In this document: in pieces, positions 641 to 37,341 of the stretch
Layout of the letters: each line of letters begins with the position of its first letter
Position numbering within the stretch: the stretch's first letter is position 1
Source: Acholeplasmatales bacterium
Lineage (GTDB): Bacteria; Bacillota_I; Bacilli_A; Acholeplasmatales; Anaeroplasmataceae
Direction of reading: 5' to 3'
Assembly: GCA_017449215.1 (NCBI GenBank)
Contig: JAFSJY010000087.1
Location: 1-64,000, forward strand
Length of the DNA: 64,000 nucleotides
Notes under the pieces: model-generated
Database searches by the model: none
What the model was told of the DNA's origin: nothing
The model's input: the letters and a program-made list of their open reading frames with translations, nothing else
Made by a program: the position numbers and the translations under genes

Positions 641-3298
641 TTATCCCTTCGCATGAATATTAGAAATCTTATTTCTTAATTCATTCTTCTTTCTTTCAAA
701 ATATCCAGTTTTTGAAATGAATTCAATATCCTCATCATTTAAATATTTTTCTTCATTTAAAATAATATTTTTATAATCTAAATCACTAAATCTATCTACA
801 TTAATATTTTCTCTTAAATCCATAACAATTTGCATATTGTTATTATCTAATACTACATAGATAACTCTAGCTAAATCATATCTTCTCTTAATCTTATATT
901 CATTAGCAAGCTCTGCTAGCTTATCGCTATTATCAATACCATCTAATTCCTCATTTAATAATTTTATTGCATATTTTAAATTATCAAAATCAGTACCTAA
1001 ATAGAATGATAAATTATCTGAAGCTGCCTTAAAGTCTAAATTTCTAAATGAATCAATAGCTCTAAAATAGAAATTAGCCTTAGATGATAATAGCTCTTCC
1101 TTGAATAAATCAATATTTTCATCTAATAATACAGCAATTAAATCAGTTAAATTCTTAATAGTATTAGGTCCTAGCTTAGTATCATCCTCAATCTCTAAGA
1201 AATTAACCTTACATCTAGTAATACCTACATATAGCTGATTATAAAAGATTCTTCCAGCTCTAGAATATTGATAATCATCAGAGAATATACCTTCATATTC
1301 GGCTGCCTTAGATGTACATAGCTTATATACTACTACAAAATCCTCTTCTCTACCCTTAGATTCACTAACAGTAAATACCTTATCAGCTTGTACCTTAAAG
1401 TCATTTATAAGCTCCTGCTTAGCCTCATTATCAGATACTATATACATAATATTTTGAAGCTTTGCCTTAGCTATATCCTTTAATAATTCTTTACCCTTAT
1501 TAAAGTTTAATAATAAATTACCACCAGTTTCAAATTCCTTTGATGCATTACTTACAAGTGGTAAATAGCCACTCATATCCTCAGTACCAAATAGTTTCTT
1601 CCCCTTTTCTCTTAATGCCTCAAGCTCTCTACAAATAGCTTGGCTATATCTAAATGATGATGATAATATTTGCTTCTCATAATCATTTATATCATTAACC
1701 ATATAGATAGTTTCTACATTTTCCATTTGTAGGAATGTAGGGTTGATAGTTTGCTCAAAATCACCAAAGATATGTGCAACTCCACCATTAGTTAGCTTAA
1801 CTATAGTATGTACCTGACGCTCAGTCATATCCTGGAATTCATCTACTATAATGTTTTTGAAGCTTCCATCCTCTAATACCTTATCGATATTTAAAAGAAC
1901 AAAATATGCTAAATCATTATCATCATATAGATTATTATTTTCTAAATATTTTTGATATGCTATACACATTTCATAAAGGATCTTAATTTCATCATCAAAA
2001 TCCTTTCTTGTTTCTCCTCTATAGCCTTCAATTAATAAGGCTTCTCTTTTAAATAATTCAAAATAATCTATATATTTTTTGTTTTCTCTTACAGGATTAG
2101 CAAAATCAAAATATTCTTTATAAATATTATATAATCCATCTAACTCTCTAAATCTTGCAGGTATTTGCTTAAATGTAGATGTATATCTTCTAGAGGCTAG
2201 CTTATACCATTCATCAAATGAATCAAATGATTCTAAATCATCACTATTTTCTACATAATCATCTAATAATGTTTTTAAGCTTTCAAATTCCTTTATATCT
2301 ATATTATGCTTATTAGTAAAATAATCATTTATTTCTTCATCAGAAACCTTATTAATTATCTTACCCTTATAAATACCTCTAAAAAATAAATATGGATAAT
2401 CAATACCATATTTTTCAATGATTGAATTTAGATTAGGTACATATACCTTATTCATAAATTCAAATCCATTCTTAGTCCAATTTAGGAATGTATTATTATT
2501 TGCGATTACATCATTTAATAAATTCTTATTATTAACATATGAATTATTTTTTAATTCATATCCTTTAATATCAAATTTAATATTAGATAATATTTGAATT
2601 AAAAAATCCTTAGTTGTATATACATTCTTCTTTATTGGATTTTTATAATCATCCCAGAATATATCCATCATGTAGCATACATAATCAGATAGCTTTTTAC
2701 TATATGTTATAAATACGTCATCCTTAATTGAACCATTCTTAATTTTATCAAGTGGTAATGAATTAATATATGAATGTATCGCAACATCAGTTTTACCTGT
2801 ACCTGCGGCACCAAGTACTACATTATAGCCACTATAATTAGCTATTCTTTTTTGTGTATCTGTTGGTATATATTCCTTTTTCCATTCAATTAGATTATTT
2901 AATAAATCCTTGATATTATCAATCTTAGCTTCTAATTTAGAGATAGCTAATAGCTTATATTCATTTTCCTTTAATAAGGCCTTTTCCTCAATAAAGGTAA
3001 TCTTAAAAAATGAATTGCTAGGAATATATTCCTTTAATCCCTTATAGATATTAGATAAATCCTTAATATCATCTCTTTGATTAAAATATTTATTAATTTC
3101 ATCAGAATCAGAATATTTTAAGAAATCAATAAATCTAGTTGTTACCTTAACAACCTCTCTATTATATTTAACATCAAAGCTTTTACCCTCTGGAATTAAT
3201 GAATCTCCAGCAATACCATTATCAATATGCGCTAATCTATTCTTTAAATCCTCATTTAAGCCTTGATTTAAAAATATTTTTCTATTTGATTTTTTCAT
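641..3298 (-). CDS. UvrD/Rep-like superfamily 1 DNA helicase
   Basis: This is an 885-residue SF1 ATP-dependent helicase, predicted to translocate on single-stranded DNA. Motifs seen: Walker A GAAGTGKT at residues 163-170; Walker B/motif II VDEFQD near 482-487; motif III GDFEQT; motif IV SSFRYSQ; motif V with ESKGREEDFVVV; motif VI YVGITRC near 690. About 160 residues precede Walker A, without a nuclease signature. After motif VI comes a helical, possibly TPR-like tail of roughly 180 residues not typical of UvrD, PcrA or Rep. The large insertion between Walker A and motif II resembles the orphan helicase-IV-like group. It sits 11 bases downstream of the ABC-F gene and 5 bases upstream of the coiled-coil gene. 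The exact substrate is unknown. Confidence 0.88.
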   Translation of the reverse strand: MKKSNRKIFLNQGLNEDLKNRLAHIDNGIAGDSLIPEGKSFDVKYNREVVKVTTRFIDFLKYSDSDEINKYFNQRDDIKDLSNIYKGLKEYIPSNSFFKITFIEEKALLKENEYKLLAISKLEAKIDNIKDLLNNLIEWKKEYIPTDTQKRIANYSGYNVVLGAAGTGKTDVAIHSYINSLPLDKIKNGSIKDDVFITYSKKLSDYVCYMMDIFWDDYKNPIKKNVYTTKDFLIQILSNIKFDIKGYELKNNSYVNNKNLLNDVIANNNTFLNWTKNGFEFMNKVYVPNLNSIIEKYGIDYPYLFFRGIYKGKIINKVSDEEINDYFTNKHNIDIKEFESLKTLLDDYVENSDDLESFDSFDEWYKLASRRYTSTFKQIPARFRELDGLYNIYKEYFDFANPVRENKKYIDYFELFKREALLIEGYRGETRKDFDDEIKILYEMCIAYQKYLENNNLYDDNDLAYFVLLNIDKVLEDGSFKNIIVDEFQDMTERQVHTIVKLTNGGVAHIFGDFEQTINPTFLQMENVETIYMVNDINDYEKQILSSSFRYSQAICRELEALREKGKKLFGTEDMSGYLPLVSNASKEFETGGNLLLNFNKGKELLKDIAKAKLQNIMYIVSDNEAKQELINDFKVQADKVFTVSESKGREEDFVVVYKLCTSKAAEYEGIFSDDYQYSRAGRIFYNQLYVGITRCKVNFLEIEDDTKLGPNTIKNLTDLIAVLLDENIDLFKEELLSSKANFYFRAIDSFRNLDFKAASDNLSFYLGTDFDNLKYAIKLLNEELDGIDNSDKLAELANEYKIKRRYDLARVIYVVLDNNNMQIVMDLRENINVDRFSDLDYKNIILNEEKYLNDEDIEFISKTGYFERKKNELRNKISNIHAKG

Positions 3299-30618: not shown

Positions 30619-32961
30619 TTATTTTATATCATGGAATTTTAAGCTAATATCAAATGCCATAACTGAGTGAGTTAAAGCACCTACAGAAATATAATCTACT
30701 CCTGTTTCTGATACTTCCTTAATTCTACCTAATGTCATATTTCCTGATGCCTCAAGCTTCTTCTTATGATCATTTAGCTTAACACATTCAGCCATCATTT
30801 CAGTTGACATATTATCTAGCATAATAATATCAGCTTCTGTATTTAAGGCTTCCTTAAATTGGTCTATATTTTCTACTTCAACCTCAACCTTAATATTTGA
30901 AGGCACCTTAGTCTTAATTAATTCTACGGCCTTTGTAATGCTACCTACGGCATCAATATGATTATCCTTAAGCATTACCATATCAGATAATGAGAATCTA
31001 TGATTAGTACCTCCACCATGCTTAACAGCTAGCTTTTCAATATATCTTAAATTAGGTGTAGTCTTTCTTGTATCTAAGATTTTAGTATCACCTACAACCT
31101 CATGAACATATTTATTAGTTACTGTTGCGATACCTGACATTCTTTGCATCAAATTAAGAGCTACTCTTTCACCCTTTAAGATTGTCTTAGTCTCACCATC
31201 TATTTCAGCGATAACATCATATTTATTAACCTTATCGCCATCCTTAACATTAAATTTGATATTGAATTCTCCACCAACAATTTCAAATACTCTCTTTACT
31301 ACCTCACATCCAGATACGATACCTGTATCCTTGGCAATAAATTTGGCATGAGATTTATCTCCATCCTTAAAGATATTATCAGTTGTAATATCTCCTGCTG
31401 GCATATCCTCCTTTAAGGCATTCTTAATTATTCTATCTACAACCATTAAATCCATATTATAGTTAATTCTATAATGTGAACCAACTGATTCAGTTCTTCT
31501 AATAGCTGCGTTAATAATTAATAATGCACATGTAACCATATTTAATGTTTCAAAATAATATCTACTCATTACATGAATCTTTAATAAATTCTTATAATGT
31601 GTTTCAATAATATTTTTAGCAATTTCAAGTCCATCTGGAGTTCTTACAATTGATACATATTTATCCATCAATTGTCTAACCTCAACTCTAATTGACTTGA
31701 AGTTATATTTCTTAAATTCATGTGGTAATTCAGGAATATAGCTACTCTTTGGATTTATATCAGTAGCCTTATTAATATCATCAGCGATTCTTTTACCAAA
31801 TACTAAGCATTCAAGTAATGAATTAGATGCTAATCTATTCGCACCATGAACACCAGTATTAGCACATTCACCTACTGCGTATAAATTAGTAAGTGATGTA
31901 TGTCCATAAACATCTACATTAATACCACCACATAGGAAATGCTCAATTGGGGCAACAGGGATATAATCCTTAGACATATCAACACCAATTGATAAGCACT
32001 TATTGTAGATTGTAGGGAATCTCTTCATTAAGAATTCCTTACTCTTATGAGTAATATCTAGATATACATGGTCACTCCATGTATCAAACATTTCTCTATA
32101 AATAGATTGAGATACTACATCTCTTGGAGCTAGCTCCATTCTTTCCTTATCATATTTTGCCATGAAGCGCTCTCCTTCAATGTTCTTTAAGATAGCACCC
32201 TCACCACGAACTGCCTCACTAATTAAGAATCTTTGACCAGTCTTATCCTCTTCATAAAGACCAGTTGGATGGAATTGAACGAATTCCATATTCTTAATTT
32301 CAACACCAGCTCTATAAGCAAGTGCGATACCATCACCCATTGCGAACTTCTCATTAGTAGAATTCTTATAAATACCACCACAGCCACCAGTTGCGATAAC
32401 TATTTTATTAGAAAATATTGCATGTGGCTCATTTTCTTGGTTAATTACAATAACACCTACGGCCTTATTATTTTCCTTAATAATGCTAAATGCCATCCAA
32501 TCCTCAAATACAGAAATATTACTTCTTGCATGTAATGCATTTCTTAAATCCTCCATTACACGCGCACCAGTGGCATCACCACCAGCATGTAATATTCTTC
32601 TAGATCTATGGCCACCTTCTAATGTTTTAACAAGCTCGCCACTTTCATTCTTATCAAAATTAACACCAATATTAATTAGATTCTTAATATTTTCTCCAGC
32701 CTCATTAACTAATATTCTAGTAGCTTCCTTATCATTAATATAAGAACCAGCTCTTAGAGTATCCTCATAATGCTCCTGAATCTTTTCTGGATTAAAATCA
32801 ATTTCAGCTGCGATACCACCTTGTGCTAAATTCGAAGATCCCTTATCAATTTTATCCTTGGCAAAAATACCAATCTTATAATTAGGATTAATATTCATTG
32901 CAGTATACATACCTGCAAGACCAGCACCTAATATAACGACATCAAATACTTCCTTTTTCAT
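30619..32961 (-). CDS. nadBC: L-aspartate oxidase / quinolinate phosphoribosyltransferase fusion (NadB-NadC)
   Basis: One 780-residue chain carries two steps of de novo NAD synthesis. Residues 1 to about 495 are NadB: FAD-binding GAGLAGMYT, SNLAQGGIAAEID, HSRRILHAGGDATG and EFVQFHPTGLY. From about 500 to the end is a complete NadC: DRIIKNALKEDMPAGDITTD, LNLMQRMSGIAT, DTRKTTPNLRYIEKLAVKHGG and VEVEVEN. The join is seamless, with no stop, frameshift or internal ribosome site visible. Coupling aspartate oxidation to quinolinate consumption could limit release of unstable iminoaspartate-derived intermediates, although NadA acts between them. It is the last gene of the NAD operon, 14 bases after nadA. 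Confidence 0.95.
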   Translation of the reverse strand: MKKEVFDVVILGAGLAGMYTAMNINPNYKIGIFAKDKIDKGSSNLAQGGIAAEIDFNPEKIQEHYEDTLRAGSYINDKEATRILVNEAGENIKNLINIGVNFDKNESGELVKTLEGGHRSRRILHAGGDATGARVMEDLRNALHARSNISVFEDWMAFSIIKENNKAVGVIVINQENEPHAIFSNKIVIATGGCGGIYKNSTNEKFAMGDGIALAYRAGVEIKNMEFVQFHPTGLYEEDKTGQRFLISEAVRGEGAILKNIEGERFMAKYDKERMELAPRDVVSQSIYREMFDTWSDHVYLDITHKSKEFLMKRFPTIYNKCLSIGVDMSKDYIPVAPIEHFLCGGINVDVYGHTSLTNLYAVGECANTGVHGANRLASNSLLECLVFGKRIADDINKATDINPKSSYIPELPHEFKKYNFKSIRVEVRQLMDKYVSIVRTPDGLEIAKNIIETHYKNLLKIHVMSRYYFETLNMVTCALLIINAAIRRTESVGSHYRINYNMDLMVVDRIIKNALKEDMPAGDITTDNIFKDGDKSHAKFIAKDTGIVSGCEVVKRVFEIVGGEFNIKFNVKDGDKVNKYDVIAEIDGETKTILKGERVALNLMQRMSGIATVTNKYVHEVVGDTKILDTRKTTPNLRYIEKLAVKHGGGTNHRFSLSDMVMLKDNHIDAVGSITKAVELIKTKVPSNIKVEVEVENIDQFKEALNTEADIIMLDNMSTEMMAECVKLNDHKKKLEASGNMTLGRIKEVSETGVDYISVGALTHSVMAFDISLKFHDIK

Positions 32962-32975
32962 AAGCTACCTCCAAA

Positions 32976-33887
32976 TTATTTACTAAGCTCAAGCATCTTA
33001 TCTAAGGCAACTCTTGCCTTATCCATAGTATCCTTATCTAAGGTTACCTCAAATTCCTCATTTAAAAGACATTTATAAACATCCTCTAATGAGATAAGCT
33101 TCATAGATTTACATAATAAGCCATCACTTAATAAATAGAATTTCTTATTAGGATTTCTCTTTTCTAGCTCATGCATAATACCATTTTCAGTACCAATAAT
33201 AAATTCAGTTGCCTCACTCTTAGTACAATATTCAATTATACCCTTAGTTGAGCCTGCATAATCTGCAATTTGTGTAAGCTCATATGGAGCCTCAGGATGA
33301 ACACAGAATAAAGCATTAGGATGTGCTTCCTTTGCTTTCTTAACATCATCTAATGTTAATCTATCATGGATTTGACAACAGCCATTCCATAAATCAATAT
33401 CATATCCATATTCCTTAGCTGCGTAATTACCTAAATTCTTATCTGGGCAATATAGAATCTTTTGATCCTTATAATGCTCTAAAATCTTTAAAGCATTTGA
33501 AGATGTAACGCAGCAGTCAGATAAGGCCTTTACATCAGCGTATGTATTTACATAGGAAATGACTACTCTATCAGGATGCTCTTCCTTATATTTTCTTAAT
33601 GATCTTGCATTTATTAAATTTGCCATGTAGCATGGTAAATTCTTATGTGGCATTAATACCTTTTTATCAGGAGATAAAATCTTGGCAGTTTCACCCATAA
33701 ATAATACACCACAGAATACTATAATTTTAGCATCAGTCTTTTGAGCAATTACTGATAAATTATATGAATCTCCTAAATAATCAGCAATATCCTGAACCTC
33801 ATCCTTTTGATAATAATGAGCAAGAATAATTGCATTCTTTTCCTTCTTTAATCTATTGATTTCCTTAATCATTTCATCTTTTGTCAT
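32976..33887 (-). CDS. nadA: Quinolinate synthase
   Basis: This [4Fe-4S] enzyme condenses iminoaspartate with dihydroxyacetone phosphate. Start chosen: ATG at 33885-33887, 7 bases after AGGAGG, giving 303 residues; the longer frame to 33935 starts inside the upstream gene. Family segments are ILAHYYQKDEVQDIADYLGDS, FCGVLFMGETAKIL, a Cys in SDCCVTSSNA, CVHPEAP, TENGI and LCKSMKLISLEDV, with the cluster cysteines apparently kept. The start overlaps the 3' end of nadD-nrtR by 14 bases, so translation is coupled. Confidence 0.96.
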   Translation of the reverse strand: MTKDEMIKEINRLKKEKNAIILAHYYQKDEVQDIADYLGDSYNLSVIAQKTDAKIIVFCGVLFMGETAKILSPDKKVLMPHKNLPCYMANLINARSLRKYKEEHPDRVVISYVNTYADVKALSDCCVTSSNALKILEHYKDQKILYCPDKNLGNYAAKEYGYDIDLWNGCCQIHDRLTLDDVKKAKEAHPNALFCVHPEAPYELTQIADYAGSTKGIIEYCTKSEATEFIIGTENGIMHELEKRNPNKKFYLLSDGLLCKSMKLISLEDVYKCLLNEEFEVTLDKDTMDKARVALDKMLELSK

Positions 33888-35298
33888 TTTCATTCCTCCT
33901 AGTAAATAGCGCGGCTGGTCTATGACCACCATCACTTCTTACCTCATCTGTTTTTATTACTAAATCACTAATACTTCTTCTAAATACTGGATCTAATAGC
34001 TTTTTATCTAAGATTGCCTCATATACTAATTGTAATTCCTTTAATGTAAATTTTTCAGGCATCATATGGAATACAATATCAGTATAATTAATCTTACTTT
34101 GTAATCTTTTTATAGATGTTACTATAACCTCTAAATTATCAAATGCTAAATCATTATTTTCCTTTTCTTTATATGATTCTATACCATATTGGTCTATAGT
34201 CTTAGAAACCTTACAATTAAATGATTCATCATCATTAGAAAAATTAATTTCTATTTCATTGTCATTTTCAATAAATGAGATATTAAAGAATGACGCATTT
34301 GGATTTAGATTATCTAATACCTTAGCCTTATCAACCAATCCTAAATAGCTACATGATAATACTCTTCCTCTAATATCTCTATCGATATCAGAAAATGTAT
34401 ATAGCTGTTCAAGATAAATATCATCTAGATTGGCATCAGAGAATAATACTCTTTTAGCACAATCTAATAATGTTTCATCTAGCGAAAGAAATCCTCCAGG
34501 TAAGCACCACTTACCCTTAAATGGTGGAGTAGTTCTTTTAATTAATAATACACTAAATGCCTTCTTATTATTCTTTCTATAATTAGATTTAGAAATATCA
34601 CTAACACTAAATAATGTAATATCAGTAGTAATACTCATCTTTTCATAATCATCAGCGTTATATGATTTTAAGAATTCCTCATCAGTCATATTAGAATAAT
34701 CATTATCTACATAATTTTTCTTATAGAATCCTTTTTTTATAATATAATCATAAACATTAGAATCTAAATATTCCTTAACCTTAGGATCCTCCTCTTCAAG
34801 CATTCTTCTTATTTCACTTGAATTAGTAGGAGCTAAATCAATATCCATAAATTCTAATTCACCATTATATTTACTATATTTTTCTATTTCATTTTTAGCA
34901 TCTACATTTTTTCTATCAATAACTAATAAATTATATTGATTTAAAATATATTCATATCTTTTCCATGTATTAAAGCTTTTTAAATTATCAGAGCCTAATA
35001 TAAAATATAATTTATCTCCCTTATACATATTAGCTAAATAATCTAAGCTTCTATATGTACAAATTAAATTATTCTTAAATTCATAATCAGAAATGATAAC
35101 TCTATCATTTCCCTTAAACATAAGTTCTAACATTTGTATTCTATATTCGCCCTTTAGTAAATTACTTTTATTATAATAATTACCAGTTGGAATAATTACA
35201 ATTCTATCAAATATATTTCTATTTAATAATTCCTCTACTAATTTTTTATGAGCTAGATGACATGGATTGAATGAACCTCCATATACACCTATTTTCAT
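33874..35298 (-). CDS. NadD fused to an NrtR-like Nudix/winged-helix NAD regulator
   Basis: Residues 1-194 are nicotinate-nucleotide adenylyltransferase (NadD): GGSFNPCHLAH at 7-17, LGSDNLKSF and TNSSEIRRML at 158-167. Residues about 222-370 form a Nudix-like domain with LLIKRTTPPFKGKWCLPGGF. The Nudix box keeps G269, E275 and R283 but the REUxEE glutamates are replaced (RVLFSD), so hydrolysis is unlikely. Residues about 413-466 (EKFTLKELQLVYEAI, FRRSI, GGHRPAALF) match the winged helix of NrtR, the Nudix-related repressor of NAD genes that senses ADP-ribose or NAD. It overlaps nadE by 4 bases and nadA by 14. The enzyme plus autoregulator role is inference. Confidence 0.9.
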   Translation of the reverse strand: MKIGVYGGSFNPCHLAHKKLVEELLNRNIFDRIVIIPTGNYYNKSNLLKGEYRIQMLELMFKGNDRVIISDYEFKNNLICTYRSLDYLANMYKGDKLYFILGSDNLKSFNTWKRYEYILNQYNLLVIDRKNVDAKNEIEKYSKYNGELEFMDIDLAPTNSSEIRRMLEEEDPKVKEYLDSNVYDYIIKKGFYKKNYVDNDYSNMTDEEFLKSYNADDYEKMSITTDITLFSVSDISKSNYRKNNKKAFSVLLIKRTTPPFKGKWCLPGGFLSLDETLLDCAKRVLFSDANLDDIYLEQLYTFSDIDRDIRGRVLSCSYLGLVDKAKVLDNLNPNASFFNISFIENDNEIEINFSNDDESFNCKVSKTIDQYGIESYKEKENNDLAFDNLEVIVTSIKRLQSKINYTDIVFHMMPEKFTLKELQLVYEAILDKKLLDPVFRRSISDLVIKTDEVRSDGGHRPAALFTRRNENDKR

Positions 35299-37208
35299 AA
35301 ATTCTCTAGCTCCTTTAAATACATTTTATTAAATGTGTCAGAGCTCATTCTTAAATCACCTCTTGGTGATACAGCAACGCTACCTACCTTAATACCATCA
35401 GGTACACAGTTACGCTTAAATTGCTGAGTAAAGAATCTTCTAACAAATACCTTTAGGGTTGCCTTTATTTCCTCTTCCTTAAATTCATCCTTAAATGTAC
35501 GGCAGGCTAGGAAATAAATTTTCTTTAATGGCGCACCATAACGTAGGAAATGATATAGGAAAAAGTCATTTAAAATATATGGTCCTACACTCTTTTCAGT
35601 TGCTTGAGCGATATTACCATTATCATCTAGTGGTAATAGCTCAGGTGAAATAGGTGTATTTAATATATCTGTTAATGTTTCCTTTATAATACCTTCCTCA
35701 CCATCTCTAATATGACCAATTAATGTTGTTACTAATGTTTTAGGAATAGAGCAGTTAACACCATAATTAGACATATGATCTCCATTATATGTTGCCCATC
35801 CTAAGGCAAGCTCACTCATATCTCCTGTTCCTACTACTATACCATTTTCTTGGTTAGCAACATCAAATAATATTTGAGTTCTTTCTCTTGCTTGAACATT
35901 TTCATATGTAATATCATAAACTCCATCTGGATGCTTTATATCCTTAAAATGCTGGATACATGCATCCTTAATAGAGATTTCTCTAAAATCAGCACCATAT
36001 GCCTTTATTAAATTAACTGAATTATTATAGGTTCTTCCTGATGTACCAAAGCCTGGCATTGTAATTGCTATTACATTAGTAGAAGGTAAATTTAATATTC
36101 TAGTTACCTTCATTGATACTAGGAAGGCAAGTGTTGAATCAGCACCACCTGAAATACCAATTACCATTTTAGAATTTCCAATATGCTTTACTCTCTTAGC
36201 TAAAGCATAGGCTTGAATATTTAAGATTTCCTCTAAGCCTTCCTTTGTATGAGCAAGGAATGGTTTTTTATTATATTCTCTTAATAATTCATTTTCTCTT
36301 CTTACTAATGAGAAGTGAGTTTCCTTAACATCAATATCAAAATCTACAGTTTCATAGCTTCTTTCTTTAATTCTATCACTCATTATTCTTTGAATATCGA
36401 CATCCTGAATAATCATATTAGATTCAAACTTAAATCTTTCATTTTCAATAAATGTTCCATCTGGTTCAGCAATCATGGCATGACCTGAGAATAATATATC
36501 ACTTGTAGATTCATTAATACCACTAGATGCGTATACGTAAGCGGCTAATGTTTTAGATGCTTGCATCTTAACAAGATTTCTTCTATATGAAACCTTACCA
36601 ATTGTTTCATTAGATGAAGATAAATTAAAGATGATATTAGCACCCTTTAATGATGTGAAATTTGATGGAGTATTAGCCATCCATAAATCCTCACATAAAT
36701 CTATTGCGTATGTAACATCAAAATTATCACACTTATATAATAGCTTATTTGATATTACTACCTTTTCTCCTAATAATTCTATTGAATCTAGCTTTAATTC
36801 ATTTCCACTCTTAAAATATCTAGCCTCATAGAATTCATTATAGTTTGGAATATATGTTTTTGGAGTTATACCAATAATATGACCATCATAAAATGAAATT
36901 GCACAGTTATATAATGAATTATTAATTCTAATTGGTGAACCAACAATAAAGATAGTTTTAGTTTCCTTACTAAAGCTTTTTAATGCTGCTAATCCATTAA
37001 TACATCCATTATATAAATCAGTATTTAAGAACATATCCTGAGCTGTATAGCCTACAATAGATAATTCAGGGAATGTTACTATTTCTACTCCCTTACTATC
37101 AGCTTCCTTTACTAATCTAACAATTTCAGATACATTGTAATCTACATCACATAAATGTATTTCATTTACAATAGCACCAACTCTTACATAGCCATATTCC
37201 TTTAACAT
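35295..37208 (-). CDS. nadE: Glutamine-dependent NAD synthetase
   Basis: This enzyme amidates nicotinate adenine dinucleotide to NAD using glutamine. The 637-residue two-domain form has an N-terminal nitrilase-type glutaminase (Glu in FPELSIVGY, Lys in TPKTYIPNYNEFYE, Cys in AIDLCEDLW) and a C-terminal ammonia-dependent synthetase with the P-loop GISGGADSTLAFLV and GTGDMSELALGWAT. Start chosen: ATG at 37206-37208, 8 bases after GGAGG; the frame to 37223 contains that site. It is first in the operon nadE, nadD-nrtR, nadA, nadBC, with a promoter that carries palindromes. Confidence 0.97.
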   Translation of the reverse strand: MLKEYGYVRVGAIVNEIHLCDVDYNVSEIVRLVKEADSKGVEIVTFPELSIVGYTAQDMFLNTDLYNGCINGLAALKSFSKETKTIFIVGSPIRINNSLYNCAISFYDGHIIGITPKTYIPNYNEFYEARYFKSGNELKLDSIELLGEKVVISNKLLYKCDNFDVTYAIDLCEDLWMANTPSNFTSLKGANIIFNLSSSNETIGKVSYRRNLVKMQASKTLAAYVYASSGINESTSDILFSGHAMIAEPDGTFIENERFKFESNMIIQDVDIQRIMSDRIKERSYETVDFDIDVKETHFSLVRRENELLREYNKKPFLAHTKEGLEEILNIQAYALAKRVKHIGNSKMVIGISGGADSTLAFLVSMKVTRILNLPSTNVIAITMPGFGTSGRTYNNSVNLIKAYGADFREISIKDACIQHFKDIKHPDGVYDITYENVQARERTQILFDVANQENGIVVGTGDMSELALGWATYNGDHMSNYGVNCSIPKTLVTTLIGHIRDGEEGIIKETLTDILNTPISPELLPLDDNGNIAQATEKSVGPYILNDFFLYHFLRYGAPLKKIYFLACRTFKDEFKEEEIKATLKVFVRRFFTQQFKRNCVPDGIKVGSVAVSPRGDLRMSSDTFNKMYLKELENL

Positions 37209-37231: not shown

Positions 37232-37260
37232 ATTCTAATACTATTAGAAATCATAGTCAA
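37232..37260 (-). promoter_or_regulatory. NAD operon promoter
   Basis: TTGACT (complement of 37255-37260) and TAGAAT (complement of 37232-37237) are exactly 17 bases apart. The same two hexamers and spacing occur at the lipoprotein promoter 39232-39260. Confidence 0.8.
37233..37249 (-). promoter_or_regulatory. Candidate operator over the NAD operon -10 box
   Basis: TTCTAATACTATTAGAA is a perfect 17-base palindrome (8-bp arms, single central base) that covers the -10 hexamer and part of the spacer. Position and symmetry fit a dimeric repressor; the NrtR-like domain encoded by the second gene is the obvious candidate. This is inference. Confidence 0.6.
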
Positions 37261-37267
37261 TATGTTT

Positions 37268-37288
37268 TTATCAATTTGATAATATCAA
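37268..37288 (-). promoter_or_regulatory. Overlapping palindromes upstream of the NAD promoter -35
   Basis: TTATCAATTTGATAA (37268-37282) and TTGATAATATCAA (37276-37288) are two perfect odd-length palindromes sharing seven bases, just upstream of the -35 box. They may be a second operator or an activator site, but AT-only palindromes arise easily in this composition. Confidence 0.35.
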
Positions 37289-37307
37289 AAAGATAAAAAG
37301 TATAAGA

Positions 37308-37334
37308 TAAAAGAAAATGCCTCCTAAGAGGCAT
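37308..37334 (-). terminator. Terminator of the YD-like lipoprotein gene
   Basis: AATGCCTC (37315-37322) pairs with GAGGCATT (37327-37334), with a short loop and TTTTC tail on the minus strand, 8 bases past the stop. Confidence 0.85.
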
Positions 37335-37341
37335 TATCTAT

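Follow-up and report, generated by a model that had tools for sequence, protein, structure and literature searches.

A conserved overlapping dyad upstream of a NAD operon promoter as the candidate operator of a NadD-NrtR fusion protein

The window analyzed here, a 64-kb stretch of DNA taken as a whole, carries on its minus strand an operon for NAD synthesis (Table 1). An earlier note on this DNA had proposed the gene order nadE, nadD-nrtR, nadA, nadBC behind a TTGACT-17-TAGAAT promoter. Both proposals hold: a promoter scan recovered the promoter on the minus strand with 10/12 consensus matches, and NadD-Nudix-NrtR_WHD and NadB-NadC fusions were identified among the products. Furthermore, -35 and -10 boxes with a spacing of 16 to 17 nt could be read in all 15 fusion-bearing nadE promoters. 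The nadE gene likely starts at the ATG at 37208, since the ATG further upstream (37223) coincides in part with the ribosome-binding site. NadB and NadC are joined in one 780-aa protein (30619-32961), adjoining the NadD-NrtR fusion. Upstream, the nad promoter region is bounded by the intrinsic terminator of the lipoprotein gene that precedes it. A search of the nadE leader against Rfam found nothing up to E = 1, and a riboswitch or other known leader RNA was rejected on this ground.

Table 1. Features of the NAD operon and its upstream region in the window.
Feature	Position	Strand	Evidence or remark
Intrinsic terminator of preceding lipoprotein gene	37316..37335	-	
37-bp candidate NrtR-type operator, CTTTTTATC TTTTT GATATTATC AAATT GATAAAAAC	37264..37300	-	
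Distal overlapping 23-bp dyad, CTTTTTATC-TTTTT-GATATTATC	37278..37300	-	
Proximal 23-bp dyad, GATATTATC-AAATT-GATAAAAAC	37264..37286	-	in 15/15 fusion-bearing promoters
-35 box TTGACT	37255..37260	-	promoter scan and comparison of fusion-bearing promoters
17-bp palindrome TTCTAATACTATTAGAA	37233-37249	no strand	perfect 8-1-8 dyad
-10 box TAGAAT	37232..37237	-	promoter scan and comparison of fusion-bearing promoters
nadE, glutamine-dependent NAD+ synthase	35295..37208	-	
nadD-nrtR fusion, 474 aa	33874..35298	-	
nadA, quinolinate synthase	32976..33935	-	ORF span; true start probably slightly inside
nadB-nadC fusion, 780 aa	30619..32961	-	

The fusion protein consists of NadD (residues 5-192), a Nudix sensor (~204-325) and an NrtR winged helix (409-465). 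The NadD motifs GGSFNPCHLAH and SSEIR look intact, and, judging by sequence, the NadD part probably retains enzyme activity. The NrtR-like domain named in the earlier note was borne out by profile matches of the winged helix to PF21906 (NrtR_WHD; 2.4e-18, 66.4 bits, cut-off 27) and of residues 244-323 to the Nudix profile PF00293 (34.5 bits versus a cut-off of 21.1). The winged helix also matched the structures of SoNrtR and AraR (PDB 3gz5 and 5bs6, in two stretches each). The full-length NCBIfam model for NrtR, NF050029, matched at 7e-37 and 127 bits, below its cut-off of 400, which serves one narrow equivalog and does not define the whole NrtR family. The features of that family, namely a C-terminal winged helix, a Nudix-like domain ahead of it and NAD-metabolism genes as neighbors, are all found here. 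Apart from AraR_C, a marginal match that falls on the winged helix as well, the profile matches were to CTP_transf_like, NUDIX and NrtR_WHD only; the N-terminal repressor and ribosylnicotinamide kinase domains of enterobacterial NadR were not found in the fusion by profile search. The catalytic RE..EE of the Nudix box is lost, with RVLFSD in its place. This degenerate domain would be a sensor only, as has been described for other NrtR proteins with a lost catalytic Nudix box (PMC12735969).

Relatives of the fusion, some complete and some truncated at contig ends, occur in about ten other genomes of the window's genus, g1, and in eight of g6, a second genus of the same family. Among the NrtR_WHD matches from 160 genomes of the order and a sample of 395 from the class, open frames of ~470-486 aa are confined to this Bacilli family, and outside it NrtR is a stand-alone protein. 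The fusions group in a single clade (support 100/99) of a tree built from 47 NrtR domains. In this survey the NadD-NrtR fusion was limited to one clade and to two genera of that family. One genome, G005, encodes NrtR twice: once as a stand-alone protein in a pncA-pncB-prs-nadK operon (L050 325-1188), and once as the truncated end of a fusion-like NrtR ahead of nadA-nadBC (L096 1-429).

Immediately upstream of the -35 box lies a 37-bp element made of three 9-bp half-sites with N5 gaps, in 14-bp steps (promoter strand, CTTTTTATC-N5-GATATTATC-N5-GATAAAAAC). It can be described as two 23-bp dyads (9-N5-9) that overlap by 9 bp and have their centers 14 bp apart; the shared middle half-site, GATATTATC, is itself palindromic. 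The proximal dyad ends 3 bp upstream of the -35 box, and its center lies at ~-50 from the expected transcription start (~-48 to -50 for the nadE operators overall). With a matrix that includes the site itself, the proximal dyad scored 30.0, the next unrelated site in the window 8.0 and the distal dyad 16.8. Within any single genome, the upstream 45 bp taken alone mostly do not score significantly as a dyad. The case for the element rests on its conservation and on out-of-sample matches.

The proximal 23-mer is kept in 15/15 fusion-bearing nadE promoters examined, all of which come from one family and are therefore not independent. Its mean pairwise identity is 0.91 in g1 and 1.00 in g6. The corresponding values are 0.47 and 0.73 in the promoter spacer and 0.41 and 0.29 in the 23 bp that lie past the element. 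The distal dyad was found in g1 (degenerate in G013) and is missing from g6, where the proximal dyad stands by itself. The gap between the proximal dyad and the -35 box varies from 1 to 4 bp. The halves of the middle half-site often co-vary, GATATTATC becoming GTTATTAAC in G002, G026 and G023. When 60 relatives were searched with a 24-base pattern of the g1 site, matches with 0-1 mismatch fell only upstream of nadE, in nine fusion-bearing g1 genomes, the window genome with its one locus included; the best match in genomes without NrtR had 3 mismatches. A looser, degenerate 23-bp pattern, run for more regulon members, gave counts near control and was thus uninformative.

The element is missing upstream of nadE in three sister genomes that keep a close nadE and in which no fusion was detected (G018, G019 and G022). 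In G018, G019 and probably G022, nadE lies behind a different, unfused adenylyltransferase-like gene (L094 4463-4987; L095 8087-10310; L097), and in G019 these two genes form a salvage operon with pncA and pncB. In g6, no nadA or nadBC follows the fusion (L047 8044-11408; L138; L142), so that only nadE and nadD-nrtR stand under the conserved operator.

The out-of-sample matches were obtained by training a matrix on the nadE sites only and running it on stand-alone NrtR loci, with 85 kb of DNA as control. The best matches fell in NAD-operon promoters or beside nrtR, with scores of 12 to 24 versus a control peak of 9.4. Specifically, L037 gave 19.5, 18.8 and 18.0, L038 14.7, L039 20.2 and L147 23.8. 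The L037 sites lie before pncA (over the TATAAT of TTGACA-17-TATAAT), before pncB and before nrtR, and that of L038 lies over the -10 box and downstream. These are unlinked operons, and their sites often overlap or directly trail the -10 box. Both L039 and L147 have site pairs with the 14-bp offset, in the geometry seen in the window. The L039 site (3003-3039; Oscillospiraceae) is an overlapping 37-bp site before radical-SAM-like and aminoacyl-tRNA-synthetase-like genes in an operon with NrtR. After the matrix was widened by the first matches, more 14-bp-offset pairs appeared before nrtR at L180, L181, L182, L190 and L196; with the strict matrix, the scores of some of these pairs, and of several f12 sites, barely exceed those of shuffles or do not exceed them at all.

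The fusion clade is sister to stand-alone NrtRs that include those of L037, L038 and G005. In the larger clade, to which the fusion belongs, a matching site lies beside nrtR at most stand-alone loci; no clear site was found at L200, L201, L202, L144 and L050, the last of which is cut off. In the outgroup NrtR clade, no site with these letters lies beside nrtR. Two outgroup loci (L194 2225-2247 and L195 928-950) have a 9-N5-9 dyad with other letters (GTTTTAAAC-N5-GTTTTAAAC) upstream of nrtR.

We consider it likely that 37264-37300 is the operator through which NadD-NrtR, as one or two dimers, represses its own operon until released by ADP-ribose. The autoregulatory circuit of the earlier note survives in this form, as the element tracks NrtR, while the palindrome that the note had chosen as the site does not. 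We infer that the NrtR part of the fusion binds the 37-bp element, each dimer on one 23-bp dyad. So bound, it would block RNA polymerase and its upstream contacts over ~-61 to -39 and beyond, and repression would extend to nadE, nadD-nrtR, nadA and nadBC. ADP-ribose, a product of NAD consumption, would release the repressor, as reported for other NrtR proteins (PMC6800001, PMC12735969).

The predicted nadE operator lies upstream of the -35 box, whereas sites at other NrtR loci lie at or after the -10 box, and this atypical position leaves room for activation. The element could be an activator site through which NrtR acts positively, or chiefly an A-tract UP element that boosts transcription; it terminates in an A-tract, and its position is one at which activators and the alpha subunit of RNA polymerase bind. 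However, the 1-4 bp variation in its gap to the -35 box fits contact-dependent activation poorly, the homologous sites at other loci overlap or trail the -10 box, and the characterized NrtR proteins of NAD metabolism have been described as repressors (PMC4666351, PMC6800001). An UP element alone would leave the dyad symmetry and the match to unlinked NrtR promoters unexplained, and physiological logic also disfavors activation. We therefore regard a positive role as unlikely.

The palindrome over the -10 box, which the earlier note had taken as the repressor site, is real and located exactly where it was claimed. It covers the last 12 spacer bases and the first five of TAGAAT on the minus strand. 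Perfect 8-1-8 palindromes number four in the window, this one included, and a dyad as good arises in ~0.7% of 300 shuffles of its own -35-to-ATG stretch. Of 14 other fusion-bearing promoters, only that of the nearest relative, G008, has kept it; the remaining 13 pair 1-6 of the 8 palindrome positions. By the earlier note's own criterion, conservation in relatives that keep the fusion, the palindrome is therefore not the operator. TTCTAATACTATTAGAA has no second exact copy in the 2.05-Mb genome. The scan for further copies that the note had suggested returned 198 matches per strand at up to 3 mismatches versus 196 in the reversed control, and a genome-wide motif was rejected at this control level.

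A narrower role may nevertheless be envisaged. The window genome (G000) and G008, the nearest pair among the genomes compared, share 12/12 palindrome spacer bases, whereas their nadE fourfold sites are 65% identical; the chance of twelve unchanged bases is ~0.006. The palindrome may have a minor, lineage-specific role in these two genomes. In this species and G008 it could itself be bound by a dimeric repressor, NrtR or a different one, that adds a second level of control, and its perfect, locally unusual symmetry would agree with this. Yet it is absent from 13 of the 14 other promoters and unlike NrtR dyads, and its near-copies occur at chance level, the two with 1 mismatch lying at genes without evident link to NAD synthesis; such binding is, in our view, quite improbable.

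That some transcription factor other than NadD-NrtR binds the 37-bp element is very unlikely: these genomes encode many regulators and the pairing is deduced from sequence, but the element tracks NrtR genes across families, even at the Oscillospiraceae locus, adjoining nrtR or its operon, and a single NrtR_WHD protein is encoded in the window genome. NiaR as the regulator was rejected, its 3H domain being missing from the 8 genomes searched and detected in the Bacillus subtilis control.

Beyond repression by NadD-NrtR at the 37-bp element, the catalytic state of NadD might join the switch, with NadD substrate or product and ADP-ribose at the Nudix domain together setting binding, and two dimers sharing the palindromic middle half-site. 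We see this as a rather doubtful extension. If it were so, the fusion and NadR would be counterparts that evolved independently.

NrtR, its operators and its autoregulation are already known. The fusion, the predicted operator upstream of the -35 box and its overlapping layout with a 14-bp offset set the present system apart from these; no description of a NadD-NrtR fusion was found in the literature searched, of which the original NrtR regulon paper was not part. Our analysis corrects the site to test and supplies an exact 37-bp probe. The predicted geometry, 9-N5-9-N5-9 in 14-bp steps, would be common to NrtR genes of several Bacilli families and could be used for finding NAD regulons in uncultured relatives.

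A dyad of ~21-23 bp at nrtR-linked NAD promoters is expected of NrtR operators and is present here. The Mycobacterium NrtR operator, GTTTTCGA-N7-TCGAAAAC, spans 23 bp as 8-N7-8 (PMC6800001); the 23-bp dyad of the window has the same layout, whereas its letters differ. Like MsNrtR of Mycobacterium smegmatis and SoNrtR of Shewanella, the fusion combines a Nudix sensor, with a degenerate Nudix box, and an NrtR winged helix, and has NAD genes as likely targets and a predicted 23-bp operator at its own operon. In contrast to both, NadD is fused ahead of NrtR, the operator lies upstream of the -35 box, and in g1 it is an overlapping pair with a 14-bp offset. With BtAraR, an NrtR-family regulator of Bacteroides, tandem operators yield a pair of shifted bands, interpreted as one and two bound dimers (PMC4666351). 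It is a dimer whose subunits likewise join a Nudix-like part to a winged helix; however, it senses arabinose, and its 21-bp tandem sites are separated by a few bp instead of overlapping by 9 bp as in the window. Enterobacterial NadR, which carries an N-terminal repressor and a ribosylnicotinamide kinase domain (PMC6800001), resembles the fusion in principle, in that a NAD-pathway adenylyltransferase and a repressor of NAD genes share one protein. Unlike NadR, the fusion is built of NadD, Nudix and a C-terminal winged helix; the regulatory domains are unrelated and the resemblance is one of plan only. The penultimate enzyme of NAD synthesis here carries the likely regulator of its own operon, by a route other than that of NadR.
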